Assembly: GCA_019359395.1 (NCBI GenBank)
Contig: JAHHHK010000021.1
Coordinates: 1-64,000, forward strand
Reading direction: 5' to 3'
DNA length: 64,000 nt
DNA from: Komarekiella atlantica HA4396-MV6
Lineage (GTDB): Bacteria > Cyanobacteriota > Cyanobacteriia > Cyanobacteriales > Nostocaceae
This document shows, piece after piece, positions 37,925-63,924 of the stretch. The notes under the pieces were generated by a model. It was not told where the DNA came from and did not search any database. It saw only the letters and a list, made by a program, of their open reading frames with translations. How positions within the stretch are numbered: the first letter of the stretch is position 1; the number at the start of each line of letters is the position of its first letter. Both the position numbers and the translations under genes were made by a program.

Positions 37925-40900
37925 ATGAGTACACAAAATTTTTTTAAACATATTTCTAAGCAAAATATTACTGTTACAGCTACATTTACAAGCGAACCAC
38001 TTGAGGATTCTCTATCGTATTGGCTTGAAGAAATAGGAGTTCCTTATTCAATAGAGTTTGCTCCTTATCATCAGGTATTTCAAGAACTGCTCAATCCAGC
38101 CAGCCTTCTAGCTAACAATCAAGATGGAGTAAATGTAGTTCTGGTTAGATTTGAGGATTGGGAAGTAAATAAGAACCGTCTACAACTAACCGTTGACGAT
38201 GATCTCAAAGCAGAAATTTTAGGCGATCGCACACTACACACTTTACCCAATCACTTAGAAATCGCTCACCTTAACCAGTACGAAACTGAGTATCTATATC
38301 AAGAAATTTTTGGCGACCGCGTCTATTTAAAGCATGGAATTGTCTTCAATGAAGACGACTGTATAATCGATGTCGGAGCAAATATTGGTTTATTCACTTT
38401 ATTTGCCCAGCAAAAATCACCAAAAAGCACTATTTACGCATTTGAGCCTGCACCTCACGCCTTTGACAAGTTACAGACTAATGCCAAGCTCTACTGTCAA
38501 AATACCCATCTTTTTAATTGCGGATTAGGTGGTGAATCCAGAGAAGAAACTTTCACTTTTTATCCTCGTTCTTCAGTTTTCTCAAGTTTTGCAGCTGATA
38601 CAGAGCAAGATGAAAAAGCTATTCGCTCAGTCATTATTAATATGCTGCAACGCGATAATTCTCTAGATGAAGAGTCGTTAGAGCGCTTAGCTGATGAATT
38701 TCTCAAGGATAGACTAGAGCGAGAAACTTATCAAGCTCAGCTGCGAACTCTTTCAGAAATTATCGAAGAATATAAGATTGAAAAGATTGATTTATTGAAA
38801 CTAGATGCTGAAAAAAGCGAGTTAGCAATTCTTCAAGGGATTAAAGACAATCACTGGTCATTGATTAAACAAATAGTCATAGAGGTGCATGACCAAGAAG
38901 GCAGTACGATTAAACAAGTCATGCGCTTACTTGAAGACAAAGGCTTTAAATTTGTTGTGGATGAAGAGTCTCTGCTGCATGGTTCGGGACTCTATAATAT
39001 CTACGCTACTCGCCTCAACCAAAAGCACAACCCAGGATCACAGCAATTAGAGAAAAATGTAGCCCAAATAGAGCAAACCGTCAGAGATTTTGGCAGTGCC
39101 TTGAAAACTGCAACAACACGCTCATCAAATCCCTACTTGGTCTGTATCTGTCCTCCATCTCCAACTACTGATACACCATCTAACATCTTACATGAAAGAA
39201 TGCAAGAACTGTTAGCAGCCGATCTCAAGAATGTCAGCGGTGTGTACCTGATAAAAAGTCAAGAACTGACTAGTACTTACCCAGTAGAAGAGTACTACGA
39301 CCCATACGGAGACGAACTAGGACATATTCCCTATACACCAACCTTTTTCTGCGCCCTTGGAACGATGCTGGCGCGGAAAATCTTTGCTTTAAAGAGCTAT
39401 CCCTATAAGGTGATTGCCCTTGACTGCGACCATACCTTATGGAACGGTGTTTGTGGCGAAGATGGAGTTGCTGGAGTGAAAATCGATCCACCATTGCGAT
39501 CGCTACAAGAATTTATCATAGGGCAGCAAGCAGCAGGAAAGTTGATTTGTTTGTGTAGTAAGAATCAAGAAGAAGATGTATTTGCAGTCTTTGACCAACA
39601 TCCAGATATGTTACTTAAGCGCCATCATCTCGTCAATTGGCGGATTAACTGGCGATCAAAATCGGAAAATCTCAAGTCTCTAGCTACCGAACTGCAACTG
39701 AGTTTAGAGAGCTTCATTTTCATTGATGACAATCCAGTTGAGTGTGCTGAAGTTAGAGCAAACTGTCCAGAAGTCCTGACCCTCCAACTTCCTCAAGAGT
39801 GCGACCACATCCCGCAATATTTAGAGCATATTTGGGCTTTCGACCAACTCCAAGCTACGCAAGAAGACCAACAAAGAACCAATCTCTATCAACAGAATGT
39901 CCAGCGCCAGCGTTTACAACAAGATTCTCTCTCCTTTACTGATTTCCTCACCCAACTGAACTTAGAAATTGAGATTTCCCCAATGCAAAACGAGCAACTT
40001 TCGCGGGTTGCTCAACTTACTCAACGCACCAATCAATTTAACCTCACAACAATCCGCCGATCTGAGTCTAAAATTCAACAACTTTGTAACTCAGGAAAAT
40101 TAGAGTGTCGAGTGGTTAAGGTCAAAGACCGTTTTGGAGATTATGGCTTAGTAGGTCTGCTCTTATTTGCAACTCAAGAAAATGCCCTAGTTGTAGACAC
40201 ATTTTTGCTTAGTTGTCGGGTACTTGGTCGGGGTGTAGAGCATAAAATGCTGTCCTATTTAGGAACTCTCGCTCAAGAAAGAGGATTGGAACGAGTCGAG
40301 CTTTTCTATACATCTACAAAGAAGAATCAACCAGCCTGGGATTTTCTAGCTAGTGTTGGTAGACAATTTCAGCAAAAGAAAGATGGTGGTTGGTTATTCG
40401 AGTTTCCATCTCAAACCGCATCTGAAAGTAGTTTTATATTTATATCTGATACAAATACAGTAGCTAATAAACCCGATCAAGAAGCGAAATCTATACAGGG
40501 AAGAATCGAACCGCAGAGGCGCAGAGAACACAGAGGAATAGGAGTTAGAGAGAAATTCGGCGTAAGTCCTGTATCTGATAGCCCAGTAAAAATAACCTCC
40601 GCCGCAGACTTTTTTGAACGCATTGCCCACAATCTATACAGTCCCGAACTCATCCTCAAAGAAATTACATCCCGACAACAACGCCAACGTCCTCAGTTAG
40701 ATATAGAATTTGTTGCTCCTCGCACCCCCATAGAAAAAGCGATCGCACATCTATTCGCAGAAGCCCTCAAACTTGACAGAGTGGGTATTAATGATAACTT
40801 CTTTGAATTAGGTGGCGATTCGATTCGGGGTGCTATTCTAATTAATAAACTGCAAGCGCAATTAAACGAGATTGTTCATTTCGTTGTTTTATTTGATACT

Positions 40901-43900
40901 AAAACAGTTGCTAGATTAGCAGCTTACATAGAAGAAAACTACCCACAAGCAGCAGCAAAACTCCTGGGTAAAGAAATAAATTCAACTATTGAGCTACCAC
41001 AAGAGCGCATCGATGAAGCTAAAGTTTTGCAAATGCGCTCTTTGATTCCCTCTATTGCACCCCCAGTAGATGACGACGCAAGCAAAAACCCGCCAGCTAT
41101 CTTTATCCTCTCGCCTCATCGTAGCGGTTCTACCTTACTGCGCGTCATTCTCGGAGGAAATCCGCAGTTGTTCGCGCCTCCAGAATTGGAACTGCTGACG
41201 TTTAATACTCTTCAAGAACGAAAAGCAGCATTTTCTGGACGTTACAGCTTTTGGGCGGAAGGGACGATTCGCACAATCATGCAAATTCAGGGGTGTAATG
41301 CAGAAGAGGCGATCGCACTTATGGAAGAATTGGAAGCGAGAAATCTCACCACCAAGCAATTCTATCGCCTTATACAGCAATCTCTGGGCGATAAAATCTT
41401 GGTAGACAAGACCCCCTCCTACTCTATAGATGTAGAAACCCTCAAACGGGCAGAAATAAACTTTCAAAACCCTCTCTACATCCATCTTGTGCGTCATCCT
41501 TATGCAACGATGCGCTCTTATGAAGAAGCCAGAGTAGAGCAAACATTTCCCTATCAACATCCCTTCAATAGGCGAGAACTCGCTGAACTCGTTTGGCTAA
41601 TTAGCCATCAAAATATTCTCGAATTCTTGCAACAAGTTCCCCAACACCGCCAATATCAAGTCAAGTTTGAAGACATCGTTAGCCAACCACAGACTAGTGT
41701 TGAGGGCTTATGCCAATTTTTAGGGCTAGAATTCCATCCTGATATGCTGCAACCTTATAAAGAGAAAAAGCAGCGAATGACCGATGGGATCTATGCCCAG
41801 TCGAGAATGGTGGGGGATGTGAAATTTCACGAACATCAGGGCATCAATGCTAACACCGCAGATAGTTGGAAACAGTATTACAGCAGCGACTTTTTAGGTA
41901 ATGTGACTTGGCAATTAGCAGAGTCTTTGGGATATCAAAAGAATAACGGTGCTATTGCGAAAGTGAGTCGGGGACATCAAACAGAATCTCAGACATTCCC
42001 TCTTTCTTTCGCCCAGCAACGCCTATGGGTTTTGGCGCAATTGGAGCCGGACAGCCCTTTTTACAATATGTTTAAGGCTGTTCGTCTGAACGGGCGTGTG
42101 AATATAGAAGTTTTAGAACGCAGTCTCAACGAGATTATCCGCCGTCACGAAGTTTTACGCACCACTTTTAGTGCAGTGGAGGGAACGCCTGTACAGGTAA
42201 TTGCTCCCCACGCAACTATGAAACTCTCGGTTGTAAACTTGCAAGGATTGTCAGGACAAGAACAGTCGCAACAATTGCAACTTTTAGCAACCCAGGATCA
42301 ATTACAGCCTTTTGACCTGACTAAAGGACTGTTGCTACGAGTCACTTTAGTACGGTTAAATAACGAACCACAGAGGCACGGAGAACACAGAGGAAGAGAA
42401 AGAGAGAAAGATTCTAAATTTTGGTTTACTCAGCAAAGTTGCTTTGACAAACCACTAGTAAAACTCAAGTCAGAGTCTTATGCTTTGTTATTGACTATGC
42501 ACCACATTATCGGTGATGGCTGGTCAATGGGAGTATTGATCAAAGAATTGTCGAGTTTGTATCGAGGCTTCTTGGTTGGTGATTCTTCTTCCCTCCCGGA
42601 GTTACCGATTCAATACGCAGATTTTACGATTTGGCAACGCCAATGGTTGCAAGGAAAAGCATTACAAACCCCAATCAATTACTGGAAGCAACAGTTAGCA
42701 GATGCACCACCTTTGTTGGAACTACCTACGGATAGACCGCGTCCTGCTGTGCAAACTTTCCGGGGTTGGTGTTTTTCCTTCCAGCTAGATGCAAAACTGA
42801 CGGAAAAGTTAAAAGAACTCAGCCACAAGTCGGGAACCACCCTATTTATGACTTTGATGGCGGCTTATGCTACTCTATTGTTCCGTTACAGTGGTCAAGA
42901 AGATATTCTGCTAGGAACACCGATCGCTAGCCGCAATCATCAGGATATAGAGGGGTTAATTGGCTTTTTTGTCAATACCTTGGTGATGCGAACTCGACTA
43001 GAAGGCAATCCCAGTTTCTCAAAGCTACTAATGCAAGCAGAACGCACTTGCATGGATGCCTATGCGAATCAAGATGTTCCTTTTGAACAGATTGTCGAAG
43101 CTTTGCAAATAGAGCGCAGTCTTAGCCATAGTCCGCTATTTCAGGTGATGTTTGCGTTGCAGAATGCCCCGATGGAGCAATTAGAAACCCCTGATTTAAC
43201 TATCGCACCCTTACATCTAGATAATGTCAATGCCAAGTTTGACCTCACATTACAGATGTGGGAAAACACAGACGAAGGAAACTCTCTACAAGGGTTTTGG
43301 CAATATAATACCGATTTGTTTGATGAAGACAGAATCGCTCGCATGACTGGTCATTTCCAGACATTATTAGCAGGAATTGTGGCGAATCCTGAAGAATCGG
43401 TCGGTACATTACCATTGCTAACTGAGCGTGAACGTCATCAATTATTAGTGGAATGGAATGATACTCACATACCATATCCCGATACTAAAACTATCCATCA
43501 AGTATTTGAGGAGCAAGTAGAACAAACACCCGATGCGATCGCACTGGTGTATGAGAATGAGTCTCTGACATATCGGGAATTGAACGATCGCGCCAATCAA
43601 TTAGCGCATTATCTGCAAAGCTTGGGAGTCGGGACAGAAGTACTGGTAGGGATTTGCGTTGAGCGATCACCACAGATGATTATCGGAATGCTGGCAATTC
43701 TCAAAGCAGGTGGTGCTTACGTTCCTCTAGACTCCAGCTATCCTCAAGAACGCTTGGCTTATATGCTGAATGATTCTCAGGTATCAATACTACTGACTCA
43801 AAAACAGTTAGTAGATCAGATACCGGAAACCAACGCTCAAATTGTATTTTTAGATACTGACTGGAAAGAAGTAATTAGCAAATATAGCCAGGAAAACCCC

Positions 43901-46684
43901 ACCAGTAAAGCATCAAATCATCACCTAGCTTATGTAATTTATACCTCTGGTTCTACAGGAAAGCCGAAAGGCATAACCGTGACTAATCAAGCTGTGAATC
44001 GGCTAGTGTGTAACACTAACTACGTAAAATTAACAGCTAATCACCGAGTTGCTCAAGCCTCGAATGCAGCTTTTGATGCTGCTACCTTTGAAATTTGGGG
44101 AGCTTTGCTTAATGGAGCGAGGTTAGTAGGTCTTACTAAAGAAGTCCTGCTTTCACCGCCACAACTCGCTACACAACTGCAAGAGCAGAAGATTGACTTT
44201 TTGTTTGTCACAACGGCTTTATTCAATCAGTTGGTAAGTCAAGTACCAGGAATCTTTAAAACTCTAGAAACCGTTCTATTTGGTGGAGAAGCGGTTGAAC
44301 CAAACTGGGTGAGAACATTATTGCAAAATCAACCTCCAAAGCGACTGCTGCACGTTTATGGGCCAACGGAAAATACTACTTTCTCTTCCTGGTATTTAGT
44401 CGAGGAAGTATCAGAAGGCGCAACAAATTTGCCAATTGGACAACCAATTGCTAATACTCAAATCTATATTCTGGATCGTCATCTCCAAGCTGTACCGATT
44501 GGCGTTCCTGGTGAATTATGTATTGGAGGTGATGGGTTAGCCAGAGGTTATCTCAACCGCCCAGATTTAACTGAAGACAAGTTTATTGCCAATCCTTTTG
44601 AGAAGGCAGAAGGGAGTAAATTATACAAAACAGGAGACTTAGCGCGGTACTTACCTGATGGGAATATTGAGTTTATTGGTCGCATTGATAACCAAGTTAA
44701 AATCCGTGGTTTCCGCATTGAACTTGCAGAAATTGAGGTTGTTCTAACTCAACATCCCCAGGTAGGAGATGCCATTGTAATTGCTAGGGAAGATAAGCCT
44801 GGTATTAAAAGTTTGGCAGCTTACGTTGTTTCAGAAGGAAAACAGCCCAGCGGTAGCGAGTTGCGATCGTTCCTGAAGGAAAAGCTTCCAGATTATATGG
44901 TTCCTGCATCTTTCACAGTTCTAGAGGCTTTGCCGATTACACCCAATGGTAAAGTTGACCGCCGTAGTTTACCAGTACCATTTGAGTTTAATGACTCGAC
45001 AACTGGCTTTGTCTCTCCCCGCACCGATGCTGAAAAAATCTTGGTACAAATTTGGCGTGATGTCTTACTATTAGAAAAAGTTTGTATTTACGACAACTTT
45101 TTTGAATTGGGTGGCGATTCCATTATTGGAATCCAAATTATCGCCAGAGCCAATCAAGCTGGATTAAAACTAACTCCAAAACAGCTATTTCAGCACCAAA
45201 CCATTGCGGAGTTAGCTGCTGTAGCTGTGACAACTACCTTTAAGGAGGCAGAACAAGGCTTAGTTAAGGGCATTGTTCCTCTAATACCAATTCAGCATTG
45301 GTTCTTTGAGCGAAATTTACCTGAACCCCATCACTTTAACCAATCTTTCCTGTTAGAAGTTCCGCCAAATATCCAACCGGAATTACTAGAGCAGGCGTTG
45401 CAGAAGTTACTGTACCATCATGATGCTTTACGGCTGCGGTTTGTGCAGCAAGCAACGCAATGGCAGCAGTACAACAGTGATGTGTGCGATGAAGTATCGT
45501 TAGTGATTGCTGATTTATCCAACCTTCCGCCAACAGAACAATCAAAGGCAATTGAGTTAAAGGCAGATGAAATCCAGCGATCGCTAAGTATAGCAGATGG
45601 GCCACTACTGCGAGTTGTTCTATTTAACTTAGGTCAATCTTCCCCTGGACGTTTGCTCATCGTCATCCATCACTTGGCTGTCGATGGGATTTCCTGGCGG
45701 ATTTTGCTAGAAGATTTATCTGCGGCATACAAACAATTAAATAGTGGGAATAACATTCAACTCCCTGCAAAAACGACTTCCTTTAAGGATTGGGCAATCC
45801 GATTGCAGGATTATGCAGTTACTCAAGAACTCCACTCAGAGCTAGACTACTGGCTGCACTCAAAGAAGTTTGCAGTTGCTCCTTTACCGTTGGATTTTCC
45901 TGCTGCGGCGTCACAAAACACTGTAGATTCAAGTTGCATTGTTTCTGTATCCCTGAGTGTAAAACAGACTCGCGCCCTGTTGCAGGATGTTCCTGGAGCC
46001 TACAACACCCAAATTAACGATGTGCTATTGACCGCATTAGTACAAAGTTTTGCTGGATGGACAGGCGATGATTCCCTACTGATTGAATTAGAAGCTCATG
46101 GACGGGAGGACTTGTTTGAGGATATAGACTTGTCCCGAACAGTAGGCTGGTTTACCAGTATATTCCCTGTTTGCTTAAAACTTGGAGGTCTTCGCCACCC
46201 TGGAGAGGCTCTTAAGTCGGTCAAGGAGCAACTACGACGCATCCCTAACCGAGGTATTGGTTATGGCATCCTGAGGTATCTAAGCCACGATACAACCATA
46301 CACAAGCAACTTGAGCTACTCTCTCAAGCTCAGGTGAGCTTCAACTACTTGGGTCAATTCGACCAAACGCACCTAGCACCCCTTGGTTGGAAATATGCCC
46401 AAGAGTCTAGCGGTTCTATTCACAGTCCCAAAGGACAGCGCCGTCATTTGTTGAATGTGAATGGATTAGTGATTGAAGGCAGATTGCAACTGGAGTGGAA
46501 ATATAGCGAGGCTTTCCATCACCAAGCTACTGTAGAAAACTTGGCTAACAACTATATGAAAGTTTTAGAAGCTATTATCGACCACTGTATATCAAAAGAA
46601 GCAGGAGGTTATACTCCTTCAGATTTCCCTGAAGTTGATTTGAGCCAAGAAACGTTGGACGAACTGCTAGCAGAAATTGAATGA
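37925..46684 (+). CDS. NRPS 1: FkbH(FkbM insert)-PCP-sulfotransferase-C-A-PCP-E
   Basis: 2919 residues from the ATG at 37925 (a TTG at 37910 lies closer to AAGGA). An FkbH domain starts at about 15, is interrupted by an FkbM methyltransferase (about 90-375, DVGANIG at about 150) and resumes with its HAD part (DCDHTLWNG at about 500). FkbH domains load glycerate from 1,3-bisphosphoglycerate. Next come PCP1 (GGDSI, Ser966), a sulfotransferase (HRSGSTLLR at about 1065, RHPYATMRS), a condensation domain (HHIIGDG at about 1526) and an adenylation domain (about 1857-2345; hand-read code D-A-F-F-L-G-V-T-F, Ile/Val-like). PCP2 (GGDSI, Ser2399) and an epimerisation domain (HHLAVDG at about 2582, NYLGQFD) end the protein. 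Predicted product: O-methyl, O-sulfo-glyceryl-D-Ile/Val. The product is inferred, not shown. Confidence 0.9.
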   Translation: MSTQNFFKHISKQNITVTATFTSEPLEDSLSYWLEEIGVPYSIEFAPYHQVFQELLNPASLLANNQDGVNVVLVRFEDWEVNKNRLQLTVDDDLKAEILGDRTLHTLPNHLEIAHLNQYETEYLYQEIFGDRVYLKHGIVFNEDDCIIDVGANIGLFTLFAQQKSPKSTIYAFEPAPHAFDKLQTNAKLYCQNTHLFNCGLGGESREETFTFYPRSSVFSSFAADTEQDEKAIRSVIINMLQRDNSLDEESLERLADEFLKDRLERETYQAQLRTLSEIIEEYKIEKIDLLKLDAEKSELAILQGIKDNHWSLIKQIVIEVHDQEGSTIKQVMRLLEDKGFKFVVDEESLLHGSGLYNIYATRLNQKHNPGSQQLEKNVAQIEQTVRDFGSALKTATTRSSNPYLVCICPPSPTTDTPSNILHERMQELLAADLKNVSGVYLIKSQELTSTYPVEEYYDPYGDELGHIPYTPTFFCALGTMLARKIFALKSYPYKVIALDCDHTLWNGVCGEDGVAGVKIDPPLRSLQEFIIGQQAAGKLICLCSKNQEEDVFAVFDQHPDMLLKRHHLVNWRINWRSKSENLKSLATELQLSLESFIFIDDNPVECAEVRANCPEVLTLQLPQECDHIPQYLEHIWAFDQLQATQEDQQRTNLYQQNVQRQRLQQDSLSFTDFLTQLNLEIEISPMQNEQLSRVAQLTQRTNQFNLTTIRRSESKIQQLCNSGKLECRVVKVKDRFGDYGLVGLLLFATQENALVVDTFLLSCRVLGRGVEHKMLSYLGTLAQERGLERVELFYTSTKKNQPAWDFLASVGRQFQQKKDGGWLFEFPSQTASESSFIFISDTNTVANKPDQEAKSIQGRIEPQRRREHRGIGVREKFGVSPVSDSPVKITSAADFFERIAHNLYSPELILKEITSRQQRQRPQLDIEFVAPRTPIEKAIAHLFAEALKLDRVGINDNFFELGGDSIRGAILINKLQAQLNEIVHFVVLFDTKTVARLAAYIEENYPQAAAKLLGKEINSTIELPQERIDEAKVLQMRSLIPSIAPPVDDDASKNPPAIFILSPHRSGSTLLRVILGGNPQLFAPPELELLTFNTLQERKAAFSGRYSFWAEGTIRTIMQIQGCNAEEAIALMEELEARNLTTKQFYRLIQQSLGDKILVDKTPSYSIDVETLKRAEINFQNPLYIHLVRHPYATMRSYEEARVEQTFPYQHPFNRRELAELVWLISHQNILEFLQQVPQHRQYQVKFEDIVSQPQTSVEGLCQFLGLEFHPDMLQPYKEKKQRMTDGIYAQSRMVGDVKFHEHQGINANTADSWKQYYSSDFLGNVTWQLAESLGYQKNNGAIAKVSRGHQTESQTFPLSFAQQRLWVLAQLEPDSPFYNMFKAVRLNGRVNIEVLERSLNEIIRRHEVLRTTFSAVEGTPVQVIAPHATMKLSVVNLQGLSGQEQSQQLQLLATQDQLQPFDLTKGLLLRVTLVRLNNEPQRHGEHRGREREKDSKFWFTQQSCFDKPLVKLKSESYALLLTMHHIIGDGWSMGVLIKELSSLYRGFLVGDSSSLPELPIQYADFTIWQRQWLQGKALQTPINYWKQQLADAPPLLELPTDRPRPAVQTFRGWCFSFQLDAKLTEKLKELSHKSGTTLFMTLMAAYATLLFRYSGQEDILLGTPIASRNHQDIEGLIGFFVNTLVMRTRLEGNPSFSKLLMQAERTCMDAYANQDVPFEQIVEALQIERSLSHSPLFQVMFALQNAPMEQLETPDLTIAPLHLDNVNAKFDLTLQMWENTDEGNSLQGFWQYNTDLFDEDRIARMTGHFQTLLAGIVANPEESVGTLPLLTERERHQLLVEWNDTHIPYPDTKTIHQVFEEQVEQTPDAIALVYENESLTYRELNDRANQLAHYLQSLGVGTEVLVGICVERSPQMIIGMLAILKAGGAYVPLDSSYPQERLAYMLNDSQVSILLTQKQLVDQIPETNAQIVFLDTDWKEVISKYSQENPTSKASNHHLAYVIYTSGSTGKPKGITVTNQAVNRLVCNTNYVKLTANHRVAQASNAAFDAATFEIWGALLNGARLVGLTKEVLLSPPQLATQLQEQKIDFLFVTTALFNQLVSQVPGIFKTLETVLFGGEAVEPNWVRTLLQNQPPKRLLHVYGPTENTTFSSWYLVEEVSEGATNLPIGQPIANTQIYILDRHLQAVPIGVPGELCIGGDGLARGYLNRPDLTEDKFIANPFEKAEGSKLYKTGDLARYLPDGNIEFIGRIDNQVKIRGFRIELAEIEVVLTQHPQVGDAIVIAREDKPGIKSLAAYVVSEGKQPSGSELRSFLKEKLPDYMVPASFTVLEALPITPNGKVDRRSLPVPFEFNDSTTGFVSPRTDAEKILVQIWRDVLLLEKVCIYDNFFELGGDSIIGIQIIARANQAGLKLTPKQLFQHQTIAELAAVAVTTTFKEAEQGLVKGIVPLIPIQHWFFERNLPEPHHFNQSFLLEVPPNIQPELLEQALQKLLYHHDALRLRFVQQATQWQQYNSDVCDEVSLVIADLSNLPPTEQSKAIELKADEIQRSLSIADGPLLRVVLFNLGQSSPGRLLIVIHHLAVDGISWRILLEDLSAAYKQLNSGNNIQLPAKTTSFKDWAIRLQDYAVTQELHSELDYWLHSKKFAVAPLPLDFPAAASQNTVDSSCIVSVSLSVKQTRALLQDVPGAYNTQINDVLLTALVQSFAGWTGDDSLLIELEAHGREDLFEDIDLSRTVGWFTSIFPVCLKLGGLRHPGEALKSVKEQLRRIPNRGIGYGILRYLSHDTTIHKQLELLSQAQVSFNYLGQFDQTHLAPLGWKYAQESSGSIHSPKGQRRHLLNVNGLVIEGRLQLEWKYSEAFHHQATVENLANNYMKVLEAIIDHCISKEAGGYTPSDFPEVDLSQETLDELLAEIE
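40506..40540 (+). repeat. Dispersed repeat inserted in frame in NRPS 1 (linker)
   Basis: Sequence of the GAACCGCAGAGGCGCAGAG family, found in non-coding DNA at 32297, 58941 and (inverted) 59095, here read in frame as EPQRRREHRG. It lies in the linker between the FkbH domain and PCP1 (about residues 860-872), where an insertion can be tolerated. Confidence 0.85.
42363..42396 (+). repeat. Dispersed repeat inserted in frame in NRPS 1 (condensation domain)
   Basis: Second in-frame copy, read as EPQRHGEHRG, in the same frame as the copy at 40506. It sits inside the condensation domain between LLRVTLVRL and the strand before HHIIGDG (about residues 1480-1491). With its downstream tail it lengthens a normally short loop by about 35 residues. 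Confidence 0.85.
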
Positions 46685-51722: not shown

Positions 51723-51774
51723 AAATTAGTAATTTTAACTTGATTTTTTCTCCTATACGACCTTGGTTCAAATT

Positions 51775-54053: not shown

Positions 54054-57000
54054 ATGGTAGCTATACAAAATCAAAATAAAATAAAAGATATTGAAGCCAT
54101 CTACCCCCTTTCGCCAATGCAGCAGGGGATGCTATTTCATACTCTCTATCAGCCAGAATCAAGAATATACTTTGAGCAGTTTCGCTTCACTCTTCACGGC
54201 AATCTAAACAAGAGTGTCTTTGAGCAAGCTTGGCAACAAGTGGTACAGAGACACTCAGCTTTACGGACTATTTTTGTGTGGAAGAATCGCAAACAGCTAG
54301 TCCAAGTAGTGCGTAAACAGGTCAATGTACCTTGGATTAACAAAGACTTACGTTTGCTCTCGATTAATGAGCAGCGATCGCAAATTGATTCTTTCTTAAA
54401 TATAGATAGAGAGCAAAGTTTTGAACTTGACAAATCTCCCTTGATGCGCTTTGTCTTATTTCGGTTAACAGACGAAACTTATCATTTTGTTTGGAGCTTT
54501 CATCATATATTGCTTGATGGTTGGAGTTGGCCGATTCTCTTTAAAGAAATCTTTGCTATTTATGATTCTATAAATAACAATCAACAGTTATATTTAGCTC
54601 CATCTCGACCTTACCGAGACTACATTAATTGGTTGCAGCAGCAAGACTTATCTAGTGCAGAGGGATTTTGGCGGCGAACTCTTGAGGGTTTTACTGCTCC
54701 TACCCCTTTGGTTGTAGAACAAGCGGTAGCTCACCAAGAAAAAACTAGTTATATTCGACACCAGCATTTATCAGCCGAGGCAACCGTTAAATTAAAATCT
54801 TTTGCTCAACAGCATCATCTCACCCTTTCTACCTTAGTGCAGGCGGCTTGGGCGTTGTTACTGAGTCGCTACAGTGGTGAGTCTGATGTGGTATTTGGGG
54901 CTACGGTGTCTGGTCGTCCTCATAACTTATCTGGTGTAGAGTCGATGGTGGGGTTGTTTATTAATACCCTACCTGTACGGGTAAAAATCCCTGAAACAGC
55001 TGATTTATTGCCTTGGCTGGTGCAATTGCAACAAGAGCATATAGAACGGGAACAGTATTCATACAGTTCACTGGTAGATATTCAAGGTGCGAGTGAGATT
55101 CCTCGCAATCAACCTTTGTTTGAAAGCATTGTCGTATTTGAAAATTACCCTGTAAACGCCACGCTGCAAGCACTGCCGGGTAATTTAAGAATAAGCGATC
55201 GCCAAGCCATCGGAGAAACAAATTATCCCTTAACGATAGTTGCAATTCCTGGTGATGAACTAGTAATTAAAATCAACTATGATCGCAATCGCTTTGACGC
55301 AGATACCATTGATCGGATGATTGGTCATTTGCTCACACTGTTGCAGGGAATTGTTAACTTACCTCATCACCGTGCGGGAGAACTACCACTACTCACACCA
55401 GCAGAGCAAGATTTACTCCTAGTAGAGTGGAATGCTACCCAAGCAGCCCATCCTATCAATTATTGCATTCATCAATTATTTGAGGAGCAAGTCGAAAAAA
55501 CACCCGAATCAGTGGCGGTAGTGTATGACAACCAACAATTGACTTACCAGAAGTTAAACCAGCGTGCTAATCAACTAGCGCACCATCTGCAACGTTTGGG
55601 TGTTAAACCAGATGCACCTGTGGGGATTTGTCTGGAACGTTCTCTAGAAGCGGCAGTTGCCATATTAGGAACCCTCAAGGCTGGGGGAGTTTGCGTTCCA
55701 CTCGATCCTAGCTATCCCCCAGAGCGTTTAGCCTTCATGCTTAGCGATTCTCAAGCAGCAGTCGTCTTGACTCAAACACGTTGTAAATCATTGCTGCATG
55801 GCAACTTTGCTTATCATCTCATTGTGTTAGATGATGATTGGGACGAAATTGGCGAAGAATCTGAATTCAATCCGCAAGTTGAAGTAAAAGCTGATAATTT
55901 AGCGTACATAATCTATACTTCTGGGTCTACAGGAACTCCTAAAGGTACTCTTGTCCCCCATCGATCGCTCACCAATTTAGTAGAACACCATCAGGCGAAG
56001 ATGTTAACTGGTGTGGGTGTTCTTCAGTTTGCTTCCCTGAGCTTTGATGTCAGCTATCACGAAATGTTTGCGGCGTGGGGTTTGGGTGGCACACTATATA
56101 TGATTGCCGAAAGCGATCGCAAAGACTTAGATAAATTAATTCAGTTACTTGCTCAAAAACCAATTGCTAAAGTATTCCTTCCCGTCACTTTATGGCAACA
56201 ATTAGCAGAAATATACGGAGAAGAAGAACATTTATTTCAGAATATAAGAGAAGCGATCGCCTGTGGAGAACAACTCCAGATTACACAACCAATGATTAAG
56301 CTGTTTGGGCGTTTGGAGAATTGCAAGCTCTACAATTTATACGGCCCCACGGAAGCAGACTTAGTTACATCTTATGCATTTAGTAATCAACCAGAAGAGT
56401 GGCCGATTTATCCACCAATTGGTAAGCCTGCCGTTAACGTGCAAGTTTACCTGTTAGATCAAAATTATCGCCAACCCGTCCCTATAGGCGTTCCAGGGGA
56501 ACTCTATGTAAGTGGTGATGGTTTAGCTCGTGGCTACCTCAACCGCCCAGATTTGACAGACCAAAAATTTGTTCCAAATCCTTTGAGTAAGGATACTGAG
56601 TCACGACTGTATAAAACTGGCGACTTAGCTAAATACTTAAGCGATGGCAATATCGAATTTTTGGGAAGGATAGACGATTTAGTAAAAGTCCGGGGTTTTC
56701 GGGTTGAACTTGGCGAAGTTGAAGCAGTCTTGAGTAAACATCCCCAAATTAACCAAGCAGTCGCTAAGGTGTTTGGAGAAAATGCCAGAGAAAAATATTT
56801 AGTCGCTTACTTCGTACCAATTCAAGGACAGACAATCACCGTCGAACAGTTGCGTACTTTTCTGCAAGACCAGTTGCCAGATTACATGATTCCATCGGCT
56901 TTTGTACAGCTGGAGTCGTTTCCTCTGACACCCAACGGTAAAGTCAACCGTCGCGCTTTAAAAGAACCAACAACCAGCCGGCCAGAATTAGCTCAAACCT

Positions 57001-58910
57001 TTGTTGCACCCCGGACTCCCACTGAAGAAATTTTGGCAGGTATCTGGAGGGATGTTTTAGGGTTAGAACAAGTTGGGATTTACGACAACTTCTTTAATTT
57101 GGGTGGACATTCATTACTTGCTACCCAGGTGATTTCTCTGACTCGTAAAGCATTTAAGATAGAATTACCTTTGCGAAGTTTATTTGAATCTCCTGCGATC
57201 GCAACTTTAGCTAGAACAGTCGAGACAGCTACTAGGCAAGAACTTTCGCCAGAAATCATCCCATTTAAAGCCGTGCGTTCGTGTGATGGAGTACTGCCAA
57301 TCTCCTTAACTCAGTTAGAGTTTTGGTTTTTCGAGCAATTCTATCCTGGTAATCCTGTTTACAACTTGCCGCTAGTTTATCGCGTCAGCGGTGCGCTAGA
57401 TGTGAAGGCATTGAAACAGAGTTTGACGGAAATTGTGCGACGACATGAAACGTTGCGAAGTACCTTTAAGGTTGAGAACGGACAAGTGGTTTATACAATT
57501 TCTCCCGAACCTGTATTTGACTTCGCCGCAATAGACTCACAAGACATCCCGGAAACTGAAGCGAAACGACAAGCTGAGGAAGAAATTAAGCAGCCTTTCG
57601 ATTTAGCGCGGGGGCCATTACTGCGGAGTAAGCTTTGGCGTTTGAGTCAAACCGAGCATTTGCTAGTTGTCACTACGCACCATATTGTCGCCGACGGTTG
57701 GTCTTTTAGCGTGTTGACTCAAGAACTGGCAACCCTTTACGAAGCTTTTTCTCAAAATCAACCCTCCCCCCTGAAAGATTTACCCATCCAATATGCAGAC
57801 TTTGCTCAGTGGCAACGGCAATGGTTGCAGGGGCAAGTTTTAGAATCGCAGATGCAATTCTGGAAACAACATTTAGGTGTTACACCGCCAGTCTTGAAAC
57901 TACCAACCGACCATCCACGCCCGTCAGTACGAACCTTCGCGGGTGCGCGTCAACCGTTGGTAATCTCTAAAGACTTAACCAAAGCACTCAAAGCATTAAG
58001 TCAGCAGGAAGGCGTAACCTTATTTATGACCTTGTTAGCAGCACTCAAAACATTACTTTTCTGCTACACAGGGCAACCAGACATCATTGTCAGTAGTACC
58101 GTTGCTAATCGTACCCGCCCAGAAACAGAAAAACTGATTGGTTTCTTTGTCCACTTGCTGCCATTTTGCACCAACTTAGAAGGCAATCCCACCTTCCGAG
58201 AACTACTGCGGCGGGTGCGGGAAGTCGCTTTAGGAGTGTATGCACATCAGGAAATGCCCTTCATCAAACTAGTAGAAGAACTACAACCAATTAGAGATAG
58301 TTACACACTTTTAGCTCAGGTGATGTTTGTTTTCCAAAACACTCCAGAAGATGATTTAAAACTGGCAAATTTGACTTTAAAAGAGGAGTTCATTGCAACC
58401 GATACCAAAGACACAGCCGAATTTGATTTAAATTTGACACTCCAAGAAACATCAGAGGGGATTGAAGGCGCTTTAGTCTACAAAACCGATTTATTTGAAG
58501 CTGCCACTATTACCAGAATGGGTACAGTATTTCAAAATTTGCTTGAATACATTGTTACTAATCCTGACCAACGTATTAGTGAACTTCCCTTTTTATCTGA
58601 AGGAGAAAAATTACCAATTAAAAATTACAAATTACCAGTAGGTACGGAAACTTCTCACAATGATTTTACTGAACCTGCCAACCCGACAGAAGAAGCCGTG
58701 CTAGCTATTTGGAAAGAAGTTTTAGGGTTAGATCACATTAGTACTCAAGATAACTTCTTCGACCTTGGAGGACATTCTGCTCTAGTTCTGCAACTCATAT
58801 ACAAACTACAAAAAGTTTTGCAAATACAGTTACCTTTAGTTTCCCTATTTGAAAAAACTACTATAGTTCAACAAGCAGAGGCTATCCGCAATTTACTAAA
58901 TAGTTTATAG
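54054..58910 (+). CDS. NRPS 2: C-A-PCP-C-PCP, AerG-like, no thioesterase
   Basis: 1618 residues from the ATG at 54054; the frame is open 24 codons further upstream but without homology. C1 starts YPLSPMQQGMLFH (a DCL-type start, suited to the D-residue from NRPS 1) with HHILLDG at 150. The A domain runs about 465-970 (core A3 YTSGSTGTPKG at 621). The hand-read code is D-V-H-F-I-C-L-L-V, which I cannot match to a proteinogenic amino acid and which may specify the Choi-type residue. PCP1 is GGHSL (Ser1020). C2 (about 1065-1500) has HHIVADG at 1209. PCP2 is GGHSA (Ser1575). There is no TE or reductase. C2 may attach a terminal amine. Confidence 0.9.
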   Translation: MVAIQNQNKIKDIEAIYPLSPMQQGMLFHTLYQPESRIYFEQFRFTLHGNLNKSVFEQAWQQVVQRHSALRTIFVWKNRKQLVQVVRKQVNVPWINKDLRLLSINEQRSQIDSFLNIDREQSFELDKSPLMRFVLFRLTDETYHFVWSFHHILLDGWSWPILFKEIFAIYDSINNNQQLYLAPSRPYRDYINWLQQQDLSSAEGFWRRTLEGFTAPTPLVVEQAVAHQEKTSYIRHQHLSAEATVKLKSFAQQHHLTLSTLVQAAWALLLSRYSGESDVVFGATVSGRPHNLSGVESMVGLFINTLPVRVKIPETADLLPWLVQLQQEHIEREQYSYSSLVDIQGASEIPRNQPLFESIVVFENYPVNATLQALPGNLRISDRQAIGETNYPLTIVAIPGDELVIKINYDRNRFDADTIDRMIGHLLTLLQGIVNLPHHRAGELPLLTPAEQDLLLVEWNATQAAHPINYCIHQLFEEQVEKTPESVAVVYDNQQLTYQKLNQRANQLAHHLQRLGVKPDAPVGICLERSLEAAVAILGTLKAGGVCVPLDPSYPPERLAFMLSDSQAAVVLTQTRCKSLLHGNFAYHLIVLDDDWDEIGEESEFNPQVEVKADNLAYIIYTSGSTGTPKGTLVPHRSLTNLVEHHQAKMLTGVGVLQFASLSFDVSYHEMFAAWGLGGTLYMIAESDRKDLDKLIQLLAQKPIAKVFLPVTLWQQLAEIYGEEEHLFQNIREAIACGEQLQITQPMIKLFGRLENCKLYNLYGPTEADLVTSYAFSNQPEEWPIYPPIGKPAVNVQVYLLDQNYRQPVPIGVPGELYVSGDGLARGYLNRPDLTDQKFVPNPLSKDTESRLYKTGDLAKYLSDGNIEFLGRIDDLVKVRGFRVELGEVEAVLSKHPQINQAVAKVFGENAREKYLVAYFVPIQGQTITVEQLRTFLQDQLPDYMIPSAFVQLESFPLTPNGKVNRRALKEPTTSRPELAQTFVAPRTPTEEILAGIWRDVLGLEQVGIYDNFFNLGGHSLLATQVISLTRKAFKIELPLRSLFESPAIATLARTVETATRQELSPEIIPFKAVRSCDGVLPISLTQLEFWFFEQFYPGNPVYNLPLVYRVSGALDVKALKQSLTEIVRRHETLRSTFKVENGQVVYTISPEPVFDFAAIDSQDIPETEAKRQAEEEIKQPFDLARGPLLRSKLWRLSQTEHLLVVTTHHIVADGWSFSVLTQELATLYEAFSQNQPSPLKDLPIQYADFAQWQRQWLQGQVLESQMQFWKQHLGVTPPVLKLPTDHPRPSVRTFAGARQPLVISKDLTKALKALSQQEGVTLFMTLLAALKTLLFCYTGQPDIIVSSTVANRTRPETEKLIGFFVHLLPFCTNLEGNPTFRELLRRVREVALGVYAHQEMPFIKLVEELQPIRDSYTLLAQVMFVFQNTPEDDLKLANLTLKEEFIATDTKDTAEFDLNLTLQETSEGIEGALVYKTDLFEAATITRMGTVFQNLLEYIVTNPDQRISELPFLSEGEKLPIKNYKLPVGTETSHNDFTEPANPTEEAVLAIWKEVLGLDHISTQDNFFDLGGHSALVLQLIYKLQKVLQIQLPLVSLFEKTTIVQQAEAIRNLLNSL

Positions 58911-59169: not shown

Positions 59170-59946
59170 GTGGAATCCTCCCTTTTTGATCTAACAGACA
59201 AAATTGCCATTATCACCGGCTCCGCACGAGGCATCGGCAAAGCAATAGCTCAAGGATTAGCATCTGTAGGCACAAAAGTTGTAATTGCCGATATTAAAGT
59301 AGCCGAATCAGAAAAAACTGCACAAATGATTCAAGCAGCTGGAGGAGAAGCGATCGCAATTCCCACCGATGTTAGAAATCGTCAAGATTGTTTAAGCCTA
59401 ATTGAGCAAACCGTAGCGCACTATCACAGGCTCGACATCATGGTGTGCAATGCCGGCATTGACATCATCAAATCGGCAACTGACTTAGAAGAATTGGAGT
59501 GGGATAACATCATCAACGTCAATTTAAAGGGATACTTCCACTGCGCTCAACTAGCGGCTCGACAAATGATTAAACAAGGCACAGGCGGCTCGATTATCAT
59601 GAACTCTTCAATCGGGGGTGTAGTGGGAATCAATGGCTCAGCGGCTTATACAGCAGCCAAAGGAGGGGTAAATTTACTAGTGCGATCGCTTGCATTGGAA
59701 TGGGCAGATCATCAAATTCGCGTCAATGCTTTTGCTCCTGGCTATATCGACAACATTATGGAAGGTACTGAAACATTTCGGCGATCGCTACAGGAAGATC
59801 AACAACATCTAAGTGCTGTGATTCCCATGCAGCGACGCGGTAAACCAGAGGAACTCGTCGGCCCGGTGATATTTCTCGCGTCTGAAGCAGCTTCTTATGT
59901 GACGGGGGCAGTTTTGATGGTGGATGGCGGATACAGCGCAATGTAG
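59170..59946 (+). CDS. SDR-family oxidoreductase (classical)
   Basis: 258 residues with a GTG start. The cofactor motif ITGSARGIGKAIA (about 14-26) and VCNAGID are present. The catalytic Ser (MNSSIGG), Tyr and Lys (AAYTAAKGG, about 158-162) are intact, unlike in the aerF-like gene. It ends GGYSAM, typical for the family. It is probably an NAD(P)-dependent ketone/alcohol step on the core residue or side chain. It is followed after 32 bp by the peptide-binding protein gene. Confidence 0.88.
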   Translation: MESSLFDLTDKIAIITGSARGIGKAIAQGLASVGTKVVIADIKVAESEKTAQMIQAAGGEAIAIPTDVRNRQDCLSLIEQTVAHYHRLDIMVCNAGIDIIKSATDLEELEWDNIINVNLKGYFHCAQLAARQMIKQGTGGSIIMNSSIGGVVGINGSAAYTAAKGGVNLLVRSLALEWADHQIRVNAFAPGYIDNIMEGTETFRRSLQEDQQHLSAVIPMQRRGKPEELVGPVIFLASEAASYVTGAVLMVDGGYSAM

Positions 59947-59978: not shown

Positions 59979-61766
59979 ATGCGAAGATTAACTACATTTA
60001 CTGCTATTCGCCGTCGGAGAGCGCCAGCTATCATCGGATTTATTCTGGCGATTGTCCTAGTTAGTTGTGTCCAAACTAACTTGCTCCATAAAGCAGTAGC
60101 CGGATCTCAAATCATCGTTAGTAGTTCTATCGAACCCAACACTTTTAACCCTCAGTTGATGGAGCAGGGAGTAGGGATTTTATCTTTACTCTATGAAGGA
60201 CTGATTCGTGAAAATGGTAGAGGAAAAATTGAACCAGCGTTAGCACGATCGTGGGAGATTTCTGAAAACCAAAAGCGAGTTATTTTTACGTTGAGGAAAG
60301 GACTCAAATGGTCAGATGGTCAACCGCTGACTGCTGATGATGTAGTGTTTACTTATAAAGATATTTATACTAATTCCGCCATTCCTTCTTATGCCAAAGA
60401 TTTTTTGCAAATAGGCAAAACTCGTAGTTTTCCTACAGTCAAAAAACTAGATAATTGGCGGATTGAGTTCACTCTTCCAGAACCTTTTGCTCCCTTTATT
60501 CGTACAACAAAACTAGAAATTTTACCCGCTCATATTCTGCGATCGTCCATCACTACGAAAGACTCCGCAGGTAGACCGCTATTTCTGTCAACTTGGGGTA
60601 CAAATACTCCACCCAATCAAATTATTAGCAACGGTGCTTATAAATTAGAATCTTATGTTCCAGGTGAACGGATCACCTTTCGCAAAAATCCCTATTACTG
60701 GCGTAAAGATGGTCAAAGTCACACTCAGCCCTATATTGATCGCATTGTTCAGAGTACAGTCAGTAATAATGATACAGCGTTAATCCAATTTCGTTCTGGA
60801 AGTCTTGATTTTATTGATGTAAATCCTAATTATTTTTCATTATTGAAACAAGAAGAAAAAAGGGGGAAATTCACACTTTACAATGGCGGTTCCCAAAGAG
60901 GAACCACGGCTATAATGTTTAATTTGAACACAGGCCGTAGAAATGGTAAGCCTCTGGTTGATCCCATTAAGTCTCGCTGGTTCAATACAGTAGAATTCCG
61001 TCAAGCCGTTGCTTATAGCATCAATCGCCCACGTATGCTCAATAATATCTTTGCGGGGGTAGGAGCGTTGCAAAATTCAGCGATCGCAGTCCAAAGTCCT
61101 TACTATCTATCTCAAAAAGCGGGTTTACCAGTCTATAGCCATAACCTTCAGAAGGCAAAAACGTTACTTCTCAAAGCAGGATTTCGATACAACAATCAAG
61201 GTGAGTTATTCGATGTTGATGGTAATCGAGTTCGATTTACGCTGACTGCCAATGTCGGTAATAAGGTGTTGCAAAACATGGCTCCACTTATTCAAGACGA
61301 TTTGAATCAGATCGGAATTCAGGTAGATTTGAATTTAATTGCAGTGGGATTAGTTGTAGACAAGTTAACAAATCGTCTGGATTGGGATTGCCAAATTCTT
61401 GATGGTTTCCCAATGACAATAGAACCCAATGAAGCAGTGAATATTTGGTCTACAGTCGGGAACTGGCACTTTTTTAATCGCCAACCCCAAGCCGGACAAA
61501 AGCCAATTACTGGGCAGCAGATAGCAGATTGGGAGCAAAAAATTGCCGATCTCTACATTCAAGGTGCAGAAGCTAATGAAGCACAGCGACAACAAATTTA
61601 TGCAGAAACTCAAAGGCTGAGTCAGGAATATTTACCGTTTATTTATCTAGTTAATTCATTATCAATGGTGTCTGTGCGAAATCGCATTCAGGGGGTGAAA
61701 CACTCGGCTTTACAAGGAACATTTTGGAATGTTTACGAATTGAAAACTAATTCTATCAATAATTAA
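59979..61766 (+). CDS. Peptide/oligopeptide-binding lipoprotein (SBP family 5)
   Basis: 595 residues. The signal peptide has a basic start (RRRR) and ends in the lipobox LVSC (Cys about 31). The SBP_bac_5 fold follows: SSIEPNTFNPQLMEQGVGIL, LARSWEISENQKRVIFTLRKGLKWSDGQPLTADDVVF-type strands, and VEFRQAVAYSINRPRMLNN. No ABC permease or ATPase genes are next to it, so it either uses a system elsewhere or binds the cluster's peptide for sensing, uptake or release. It is embedded in the cluster on the same strand. Confidence 0.88.
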   Translation: MRRLTTFTAIRRRRAPAIIGFILAIVLVSCVQTNLLHKAVAGSQIIVSSSIEPNTFNPQLMEQGVGILSLLYEGLIRENGRGKIEPALARSWEISENQKRVIFTLRKGLKWSDGQPLTADDVVFTYKDIYTNSAIPSYAKDFLQIGKTRSFPTVKKLDNWRIEFTLPEPFAPFIRTTKLEILPAHILRSSITTKDSAGRPLFLSTWGTNTPPNQIISNGAYKLESYVPGERITFRKNPYYWRKDGQSHTQPYIDRIVQSTVSNNDTALIQFRSGSLDFIDVNPNYFSLLKQEEKRGKFTLYNGGSQRGTTAIMFNLNTGRRNGKPLVDPIKSRWFNTVEFRQAVAYSINRPRMLNNIFAGVGALQNSAIAVQSPYYLSQKAGLPVYSHNLQKAKTLLLKAGFRYNNQGELFDVDGNRVRFTLTANVGNKVLQNMAPLIQDDLNQIGIQVDLNLIAVGLVVDKLTNRLDWDCQILDGFPMTIEPNEAVNIWSTVGNWHFFNRQPQAGQKPITGQQIADWEQKIADLYIQGAEANEAQRQQIYAETQRLSQEYLPFIYLVNSLSMVSVRNRIQGVKHSALQGTFWNVYELKTNSINN

Positions 61767-61875: not shown

Positions 61876-62838
61876 ATGAACCCAATCAAAGAACGTGAAC
61901 CCCAGATAATTGTTACCACGCCGATTCCTGTCATCGATTTTCATCCGTTTATGGTCGGTGATACCACTACCAAGGAAGCAGTTGCCGATCGCATTTCATC
62001 TGCTATTCAAGAAACTGGATGTTTTTACCTCGAAAATTGTGTAACCCAAACCTTAGTTGATCAGGTATTTGCTCAAGCGCAGAGTTTTTTCGCATTACCA
62101 GATGAGGATAAAAACCAAGTAAAACTTGCTCCAGGAACTAGCCGAGGCTACGTTGCTCGTGGTAAAGAGCGGGTATTGCTGGAAGCATTCAATTTTGGTT
62201 TAGATGTTGCACCGGATGAAGCGGGTGTAACTCACCAGAGGTTTGGTGAACCAAATCGATGGCCTGAAGACCAAAAAGAGTTTCGCCAAGTGCTATTGGA
62301 ATTTTTTAGAACTTGTCGTGATGCGTCTTTTAATATACTACAAGCGATGGCGATCGCCTTAAAACTACCAGAGTCCTATTTCACCGATTTCCATATTGAG
62401 CGCAATTTCAACACCTCCATAAATCACTATCCATCAGTGAGCCAACCTCTTTCTCCCGCAGAGACTCGATTTGCTGAACATACAGATTACGGCAGTATTA
62501 CCTTAATATTTCAAGATGAGACAGCTGGACTAGAAGTTTGCACCAATGCAGGGGAATGGATTGCAGCGCCCTACCTCCCTGGTAAAGTTCTGGTTATCCT
62601 CGCAGATTTAATGCAGCGCTGGACAAACGACAAGTTTCCCGCCACTAAACATCGAGTTCCCCTACCCTCCAAATTCCCCACCAATCCCAGATACTCGATT
62701 ATCTATTTTGAATCTCCTGATTACGATGCCGAAATTACTTGCTTAGAGGAAAATGCAACTTCCAACTATCCACCAATTCGTACCCATGAATATATCAATC
62801 AAGTCGCAACAGGAGGCTATACATCTGAAAAAAAATAG
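61876..62838 (+). CDS. 2-oxoglutarate/Fe(II)-dependent oxygenase 1 (IPNS-like)
   Basis: 320 residues. The N-terminal DIOX_N-type start is PIPVIDFHPFMVGD and GCFYLENCV. The iron triad is His202-x-Asp204 (EHTDYGSIT) and His259 (KHRVPLP). The 2OG-binding Arg-x-Ser is RYSI. The fold matches plant-like and IPNS-like oxygenases. It is about half identical by eye to the next oxygenase, so the two arose by tandem duplication. Likely roles are hydroxylation, desaturation or oxidative cyclisation of a precursor in the NRPS pathway. Confidence 0.9.
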   Translation: MNPIKEREPQIIVTTPIPVIDFHPFMVGDTTTKEAVADRISSAIQETGCFYLENCVTQTLVDQVFAQAQSFFALPDEDKNQVKLAPGTSRGYVARGKERVLLEAFNFGLDVAPDEAGVTHQRFGEPNRWPEDQKEFRQVLLEFFRTCRDASFNILQAMAIALKLPESYFTDFHIERNFNTSINHYPSVSQPLSPAETRFAEHTDYGSITLIFQDETAGLEVCTNAGEWIAAPYLPGKVLVILADLMQRWTNDKFPATKHRVPLPSKFPTNPRYSIIYFESPDYDAEITCLEENATSNYPPIRTHEYINQVATGGYTSEKK

Positions 62839-62934: not shown

Positions 62935-63924
62935 ATGATCTCAATAAACGAACTTTCAAAAACATCTATTGTTTCAACGCCGATTCCCGTCATTGACTTT
63001 CATCTATTCTTGATGGGTGACACGGTTGCTAAAGAATTAATTGCCAATCAAATCGCCAGTGCTTTACAGGAGATGGGATGTTTCTACCTGAAAAATCATA
63101 GTATAAGTGCAACTTTAATTGCTCAAACCTTTGCCGAAGCCAAGCATTTTTTTGCACTGCCGTTAGAAGAGAAAAAACAGATATCTTTAACACAAAAGTG
63201 TCACCGAGGATATATCCCTATGGGGATGTCAAGCATACTCAGCGAACAATTTTACTTTGGTAGAGAAATGAAACCAGAAGAATTGGGTGCGCTAGATCAT
63301 CCTTTTCACCAACCTAACCAATGGCTGCAAAATCAATCAGAGTTTCGTGAGGCGATGTTGCAATTTTTCACAGCTTGTCACACAAGTACACTGAAGGTTC
63401 TTGAAGCCTTAGCCATTGCTTTGAAACTGCCAAAGTCTTATTTTGCCGAGTTACATTCTGAGCAAAATCATGCTATGGGTTTGCATCACTATTCTGCTGC
63501 ATCTGAACCTGCCAAAACCCAAAACATTCGCCTAGGAGAACATACAGATGGAAATACTATTACTTATGTGTTTCAGCATGAAGTAGAAGGGTTAGAAATT
63601 TGTACCAAAACTGGAGAGCGAGTTCCAGTTCCTCTAATTCCTGATACGGTAGTCGTGATGGCAGGAGAAATTTTGCAACGATGGACGAATGATAAAGTTT
63701 ATGCCACAAAACATCAAGTTGCAATACCGTATACATCCCAAGGTATCAAACCAAGATATTCATTTGCTTTTTTTGCATCTCCTAATAATAGTGCCGAAAT
63801 TGCCTTTCCTGAGAGTTTTTTAGGTGCAAATGAAACTGCAAAATATCCTCCCATTCTCACAAGCGAGTTTTATACTCAAAGAAATAATAACAATACATCA
63901 ATTTTAAGATCCTCCAACAATTAA
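62935..63924 (+). CDS. 2-oxoglutarate/Fe(II)-dependent oxygenase 2 (IPNS-like)
   Basis: 329 residues with the same start (TPIPVIDFHLFLMGD). Iron ligands are His203-x-Asp205 (EHTDGNTIT) and His260 (KHQVAIP), and the 2OG ligands are in RYSF. The active-site neighbourhood differs from copy 1: HTDGN replaces HTDYG, and the helix after GCFYLKNHS differs. Different substrates or consecutive steps are therefore likely. It is 96 bp after copy 1, with a palindrome in the gap. Confidence 0.9.
   Translation: MISINELSKTSIVSTPIPVIDFHLFLMGDTVAKELIANQIASALQEMGCFYLKNHSISATLIAQTFAEAKHFFALPLEEKKQISLTQKCHRGYIPMGMSSILSEQFYFGREMKPEELGALDHPFHQPNQWLQNQSEFREAMLQFFTACHTSTLKVLEALAIALKLPKSYFAELHSEQNHAMGLHHYSAASEPAKTQNIRLGEHTDGNTITYVFQHEVEGLEICTKTGERVPVPLIPDTVVVMAGEILQRWTNDKVYATKHQVAIPYTSQGIKPRYSFAFFASPNNSAEIAFPESFLGANETAKYPPILTSEFYTQRNNNNTSILRSSNN

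Follow-up and report, generated by a model that had tools for sequence, protein, structure and literature searches.

A predicted suomilide-type biosynthetic gene cluster with a four-oxygenase cassette in Komarekiella atlantica HA4396-MV6

A gene cluster encoding two nonribosomal peptide synthetases (NRPSs) was found in a 64,000-nucleotide stretch of DNA from Komarekiella atlantica HA4396-MV6 (hereinafter referred to as the window), which corresponds to bases 1-64000 of a 129,564-base contig in a genome of 7.78 Mb. Genes were taken from open reading frame (ORF) calls and domains from Pfam, complemented by motif searches. The cluster ran rightward past the window edge to ~81,300 in contig coordinates (Table 1), as an earlier reading of the letters alone (the sequence-only reading) had anticipated. 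Judging from its genes, from which the product is predicted, it is very probably a suomilide-type biosynthetic cluster of the aeruginosin superfamily.

AerB, AerD, AerE, AerF, and AerG, which are common to all clusters of the aeruginosin superfamily (PMC8609519), were all encoded in this one cluster. The first NRPS, with its start at TTG 37910 or at the in-frame ATG 37925, contained in Pfam FkbM (residues 154-348), a peptidyl carrier protein (PCP), a sulfotransferase (1062-1276), condensation (C), adenylation (A), and PCP domains, and a final Condensation-family domain corresponding to epimerization (E). Its FkbH part was without a Pfam hit and was placed by LDCDHTLW at residue 504, which we take to be a HAD motif. 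The genes, coordinates, and domain order given by the sequence-only reading were confirmed by ORF calls and Pfam, with FkbM now specified as preceding FkbH, and Pfam likewise bore out CysC, AerD-AerE-AerF, and the C-A-PCP-C-PCP NRPS that it had placed behind this protein. In the motif search of both NRPSs, HHxxxDG was intact in the three C domains and the E domain, as were four PCP serines and the sulfotransferase P-loop, whereas the second NRPS showed no GxSxG beyond residue 1500.

A single scan of genome contigs with an AerC alignment yielded 31 loci, 14 of which (L105-L118) matched most of AerC and 17 matched it in part. All 14 were cyanobacterial, and one was from Nostoc sp. KVJ20, which makes suomilides B-E, G, and H (PMC10157211, PMC13122637; these two papers, PMC10744761, and PMC6520454 are cited throughout for excerpts of their text). 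In the parts compared, the window cluster matched the KVJ20 suomilide cluster (bsl) gene for gene: 19 genes from the second short-chain dehydrogenase/reductase (SDR2) to the MFS transporter had the same order and strand and were 76-94% identical, and a second KVJ20 contig carried the first NRPS (87-88% identical), Aer3, CysC, AerC, EamA, AerD, AerE, AerF, and AerG up to residue 604. The draft genome contigs of KVJ20 were used here, not the reassembled record MT269816. The Ile pocket code was also the same; the differences lay in the strain and in insertions in the first NRPS of the window. The KVJ20 suomilides are built from an O-methylated, sulfated glycerate (Mgs), Ile, azabicyclononane (Abn), Aaep, and a hexose that is methylated and bears a carbamate and short acyl esters (PMC10157211), and each of these building blocks and decorations had a candidate gene in the window cluster. 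Abn, Aaep, glucose, and hexanoate occur in banyasides as well, with a carbamate in banyaside A (PMC10157211). Thus, as far as gene comparison goes, the cluster is of an already known kind, a near gene-for-gene copy of the published suomilide cluster.

For suomilide A, the 43.7-kb suo cluster described in Nodularia sphaerocarpa UHCC 0038 has a published gene list of the same kinds, with two NRPSs, SuoD/E/F, SuoI, four oxygenases, a carbamoyltransferase, a glycosyltransferase, and an MBOAT protein (PMC8609519). It was likened to the window through the text of that paper and through cluster G292, which differed from the window in having no methyltransferase candidate, GDSL1, radical SAM, or CysC. 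Suomilide inhibits human trypsins at the nanomolar level, according to an excerpt of the same paper (PMC8609519). The varlaxin-like clusters G111 and G035 had a core in common with the window (NRPS, Aer3, CysC, AerC, AerD-F, MBOAT, and glycosyltransferase; core proteins 71-90% identical), but four 2-oxoglutarate (2OG) oxygenases (OG1-OG4), carbamoyltransferase, SxtJ, methyltransferase, GDSL, PLL, radical SAM, and aldo-keto reductase (AKR) were missing from their 60 kb. The dysinosin (dys) type of Hormoscilla (PMC6520454; L093/L094) resembled the window in glycerate-sulfate loading, Aer3, and AerC to AerG, whereas its published products have a Choi core (PMC6520454), its first NRPS was 58% identical to that of the window, and the oxygenase set was absent from its stretch, with one 38% relative further off.

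Pocket codes were read as nine columns of one A-domain alignment anchored on the window, and the tenth residue (K) was assumed. In module 1 of the window, the code was DAFFLGVTFK, exactly the Ile code that has been printed for suomilide A among others (PMC13122637). Together with the KVJ20 match, this code narrowed the class to suomilide; the sequence-only reading had correctly named the aeruginosin superfamily with a glycerate starter, of suomilide, banyaside, or dysinosin type. Its D-Ile/Val-like residue agreed with the E domain and could be narrowed to Ile. The suomilide assignment was further in line with the FkbH/FkbM/sulfotransferase loading module (FkbH by motif only) and with the presence of four oxygenases, a carbamoyltransferase, an MBOAT protein, and a glycosyltransferase. 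In NIES-4073, FACHB-152, G111, G035, and G084, the module 1 code was DALWMGGVFK, printed as the l-allo-Ile code of varlaxin (PMC13122637). That of G347 was DAWFLGNVVK. We take the latter to be a Leu code, which would suit a banyaside-like product in G347. In the varlaxin-like G111 (L077) and G035 (L083), an additional adenylating domain was located between the presumed DltD-like gene and MBOAT, and its pocket reading was unusual.

The four oxygenases belong to a gene cassette found in ten clusters, namely those of the window, G347, G292, KVJ20, Nostoc B(2019), MG11, NIES-4073, Komarekiella, LEGE 12450, and FACHB-152. OG1-OG4 occurred once each in all ten, and carbamoyltransferase, SxtJ, GDSL2, PLL1, and PLL2 were likewise present in all ten. 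The first NRPS of the window was 76-89% identical to its counterparts in the other cassette clusters and in G111 and G035; identity values from this locus comparison refer to the best single piece. The methyltransferase, GDSL1, and CysC were present in 9/10 (not in G292), radical SAM in 8/10 (not in G292 or G347), and AKR, glycosyltransferase, and MFS in 9/9, the G347 contig ending before them. For comparison, stretches of 20-60 kb were taken from 12 other genomes with aer loci (G111, G035, G126, G084, G231, G180, G096, G327, G383, G342, G273, and G298). A whole-genome search with OG1 (E<=1e-30) found the four-oxygenase set in none of these 12: OG1 relatives numbered zero in G111, G342, G298, G273, and G096, one in G035, G327, G084, G126, G231, and G180, and three in G383. 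At the same threshold, the window genome contained four and seven other cassette genomes four or five. The search for GDSL, PLL, and AKR was confined to the 12 stretches, and none of the three was present there. When 45 oxygenases were placed in a tree, the sequences of the ten clusters formed separate OG1, OG2, OG3, and OG4 groups, each at 100/100, which indicates that four distinct enzymes have been retained. Because the four oxygenases occurred in all ten clusters of this type and, as a set, in none of the 12 other aer genomes, the core is most likely Abn, as predicted from these genes, and the Choi-type core of the sequence-only reading is not the best prediction.

In the tree of Aer3/AerC/AerD/AerE/AerF from 16 loci, FACHB-152 (with the cassette) was sister to G035 (without it) at 100/100, so that the cassette label needs two changes. 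With group membership fixed beforehand from gene content, a single clade of cassette clusters was rejected for the concatenated proteins (p-AU 3e-49). The cassette would thus have been gained or lost among close relatives, and recombination between clusters is a possible alternative reason for the rejected clade. Separately, G298 contained, within 2.2 kb (L101:7915-10076), pieces of AerC (562-717, 83%), AerG (123-259), and GDSL2, which represent a decayed suomilide-type cluster.

Several observations weigh against a suomilide-type cluster with an Abn core. No product is known for the strain. The KVJ20 cluster used for comparison was on two draft contigs, with AerG cut after residue 604 and a change of frame in the first NRPS between the sulfotransferase and C, and the methyltransferase candidate of the window matched Pfam only under curated cut-offs. 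Carbamoyltransferase and SxtJ adjoined the aer genes of one cassette-free locus, G273, whose whole genome contained no OG1 relative (E<=1e-30); hence they are not Abn markers. Moreover, the module 2 code DVHFIC[L/F]LVK was found in the nine cassette clusters in which it was read (that of KVJ20 was unread, its AerG being cut off in the draft) and also in the cassette-free G111, G035, G327, G383, and G342. The second A pocket was therefore rejected as a discriminator of Abn clusters and is no proof of Abn as the loaded unit; being shared, it gives weak support to a common Choi-like unit being loaded, with Abn formed later.

Three other explanations were considered. That the cluster is silent or damaged and makes nothing is improbable. 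Repeat-like in-frame insertions (EPQRRREHRG, EPQRHGEHRG) in the first NRPS, at ~40512 and ~42356-42460, speak for it, the former in the FkbH-PCP linker and the latter (36 aa) directly before the condensation HHxxxDG. However, all searched motifs were intact and the listed cluster genes open, and the insertion before HHxxxDG persisted in a shorter form in G347, while being absent from the other nine of the 11 loci matched there. A Choi-type glycerate aeruginosin of the dysinosin/varlaxin type, with the extra oxygenases acting elsewhere on the molecule, is very improbable. It would agree with the shared module 2 pocket and with AerD/E/F, which are the published Choi enzymes (PMC8609519), but the genes and their order were the same as in KVJ20, which makes Abn-bearing products, and the varlaxin-like G111 and G035 represented the same core without the cassette. 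The least probable of the three is a banyaside-type cluster with Leu replacing Ile at position 2, for which the building blocks common to banyasides and the presumed Leu code of G347, a relative in the same genus, could be cited, but the window code was the printed Ile code.

Returning to the suomilide-type cluster, the 289-aa isoprenoid-like protein and the 717-aa Rieske protein correspond to Aer3 and AerC, as judged from homology to Planktothrix and other aer clusters and from position. The former had no match in Pfam, NCBIfam, or PDB at the thresholds applied. It carried DDEVE and NDIEDD, which are presumably class I isoprenoid-type motifs. The latter was encoded beside Aer3 and aligned along its whole length, at 55-94% identity, with the AerC proteins of other aer clusters (the G180 copy being frame-broken). 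These two genes were thus rejected as added novelty; the sequence-only reading had suggested that they, together with two 2OG oxygenases, bring in building-block chemistry beyond classical aer genes. The BslB/BslD homologues Aer3/AerC are reported to form a pyrroline ring via agmatine N-prenylation and oxidative carbocyclization (PMC13122637, citing Zhang et al. 2025), and a perfect correlation between aerC and Aeap has been reported in Planktothrix (PMC10744761). On the AerC/Aer3 match, the terminal amine of the sequence-only reading can be given more exactly as Aaep.

In the proposed pathway, the first NRPS is predicted to load glycerate, O-methylate and sulfate it (Mgs), and then add D-allo-Ile; CysC probably supplies 3'-phosphoadenosine 5'-phosphosulfate to the sulfotransferase. 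AerD/E/F would convert prephenate to a Choi-like precursor loaded by module 2, and the four 2OG oxygenases, perhaps with AKR, would reshape this precursor into Abn. Aaep would be made from agmatine by the Aer3-like prenyltransferase and AerC and would then serve as the free amine to which the terminal C domain releases the chain. The hexose would be decorated by the glycosyltransferase, the MBOAT acyltransferase, the carbamoyltransferase, and the candidate methyltransferase. Gene content, order, pocket codes, and intact motifs were observed directly, and KVJ20 chemistry, the roles of Aer3/AerC, and Aaep release were taken from papers; from these we infer product formation by the Komarekiella strain, OG1-OG4 as the builders of Abn, and the stage at which Abn would form. 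Participation of the carbamoyltransferase in Abn formation has been suggested (PMC8609519), but this role was disfavored because G273 has the enzyme without OG relatives and NMR placed the carbamate on the hexose in KVJ20 products (PMC10157211), and it was assigned to the hexose for these reasons.

Table 1. Features of the cluster, in contig coordinates (positions up to 64,000 lie in the window)
Feature	Position	Strand	Evidence
SuoB/DysB-like NRPS, 2924 aa, FkbM-FkbH-PCP-sulfotransferase-C-A-PCP-E	37910..46684	+	ORF calls, Pfam, motifs
Module 1 A domain, code DAFFLGVTFK (last K assumed)	43505..44953	+	A-domain alignment
Aer3/BslB-like agmatine N-prenyltransferase candidate, 289 aa	46730..47599	+	Alignment of 15 homologues; function from PMC13122637 (excerpt)
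Adenosine 5'-phosphosulfate kinase (CysC)	47744..48322	+	PF01583 E=4e-66
AerC/BslD-like Rieske oxygenase, 717 aa, putative fused pseudo-dimer	48591..50744	+	Pfam, alignments
AerC N-terminal Rieske domain, residues 103-189, intact CxH...CxxH (C146, H148, C168, H171)	48897..49157	+	PF00355
AerC second, cluster-less Rieske-fold segment, residues 340-480	49608..50030	+	Matches ordinary Rieske oxygenases by hhalign (98.5%)
AerC catalytic domain, residues 489-707	50055..50711	+	PF00848
EamA-family transporter	50817..51722	+	PF00892
AerD, prephenate decarboxylase-like	51763..52380	+	PF00800, weak; adjoins AerE in compared loci
AerE, double cupin	52373..53080	+	PF07883
AerF, SDR	53093..53887	+	Pfam
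SuoG/AerG-like NRPS, C-A-PCP-C-PCP, A code DVHFICLLVK (last K assumed)	53982..58910	+	Pfam, motifs, A-domain alignment
Second SDR (SDR2)	59170..59946	+	Pfam; in 10/10 cassette clusters, also G111 and G035
Family 5 solute-binding protein	59979..61766	+	PF00496
2OG oxygenase OG1 (Abn candidate)	61876..62838	+	Pfam, cross-cluster comparison, tree
2OG oxygenase OG2 (Abn candidate)	62935..63924	+	Pfam, cross-cluster comparison, tree
Protein without Pfam hit, presumed DltD-like	63937-65106		
MBOAT acyltransferase	65200-66735		Pfam
Methyltransferase candidate	66770-67480		Pfam under curated cut-offs
Carbamoyltransferase	67508-69346		Pfam
SxtJ	69346-69759		Pfam
54-aa ORF in SxtK place	69759-69923		
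GDSL1	69934-71223		
GDSL2	71341-72417		
DUF346/lectin-like repeat protein PLL1	72483-73448		
DUF346/lectin-like repeat protein PLL2	73491-74378		
Radical SAM	74448-75128		
2OG oxygenase OG3	75157-76224		
2OG oxygenase OG4	76295-77245		
Aldo-keto reductase (AKR)	77341-78174	-	Pfam
Glycosyltransferase	78468-79703		Pfam
MFS transporter	79894-81300		

AerC had an unusual domain arrangement. Its N-terminal Rieske domain was found without a catalytic domain of its own behind it, and residues 340-717, taken by themselves, could be aligned along a complete ordinary Rieske oxygenase (hhalign 99.1% over 304 columns), except that nothing in them corresponded to the part of the template that binds the cluster. 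For the second Rieske-like segment, the Pfam Rieske match was subthreshold (E=0.032) and covered only positions 1-39 of the 88-position profile. The profile comparison used six ordinary Rieske oxygenases; no others in the 34 loci searched passed a motif filter, and five of the six were cyanobacterial and of near-equal length. In the alignment of 17 homologues, C146, H148, C168, H171, E510, H513, H518, and D667 were invariant in 17/17, and CxH or CxxH was found in the second segment of 0/17. H513, H518, and D667 were placed in the catalytic domain by a motif of the family. The alignment comprised 17 of 18 near full-length copies, leaving out L118 (Hormoscilla GM7), whose frame was broken at what is left of the loop in the second Rieske segment. 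Among 388 genomes of the host's order, AerE relatives were found in 31 (E<=1e-40) and near full-length AerC relatives in 11 (in two frames in G180), with a fragment in G298.

From the domains, the hhalign result, and the invariant ligands, the two halves of AerC can be read as tandem duplicates, each of which has lost what the other keeps. Tentatively, and somewhat short of an even chance, AerC may be a fused pseudo-dimer with split metal sites, half 1 holding the [2Fe-2S] domain but no longer a catalytic domain, and half 2 the catalytic iron but no longer the cluster-binding part of its Rieske fold. Electrons would then cross from half to half within a single chain, or from chain to chain in a fixed pattern, as opposed to between identical subunits; this would be a conserved design for an unusual C-C ring closure. 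A literature search on doubled or fused Rieske domains gave one match, on respiratory complex III; the primary AerC paper lay outside this search, so the design may already be in print.

An AerC homologue (44% identical) was also observed in Hormoscilla sp. GUM202 beside an Orn/Lys/Arg decarboxylase and a cupin/JmjC protein (L115:7719-12289). Other proteins of the window cluster were not found in the surrounding 40 kb, nor was an Aer3 homologue found in the genome, which hints at a second, possibly separate agmatine-modifying pathway. An AerG-like piece (63%) was present elsewhere in the GUM202 genome.

The biosynthesis of the Abn core is stated to be still unknown (PMC13122637). The comparison of clusters provides a short list for Abn formation, consisting of OG1-OG4 and AKR and also, in a less clear role, GDSL2, PLL1, and PLL2. 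Since a cassette-free cluster was sister to a cassette cluster, such clusters form natural pairs from which Abn enzymes can be nominated. Further, the split design of AerC, if true, would offer a clean case for electron transfer in Rieske oxygenases.

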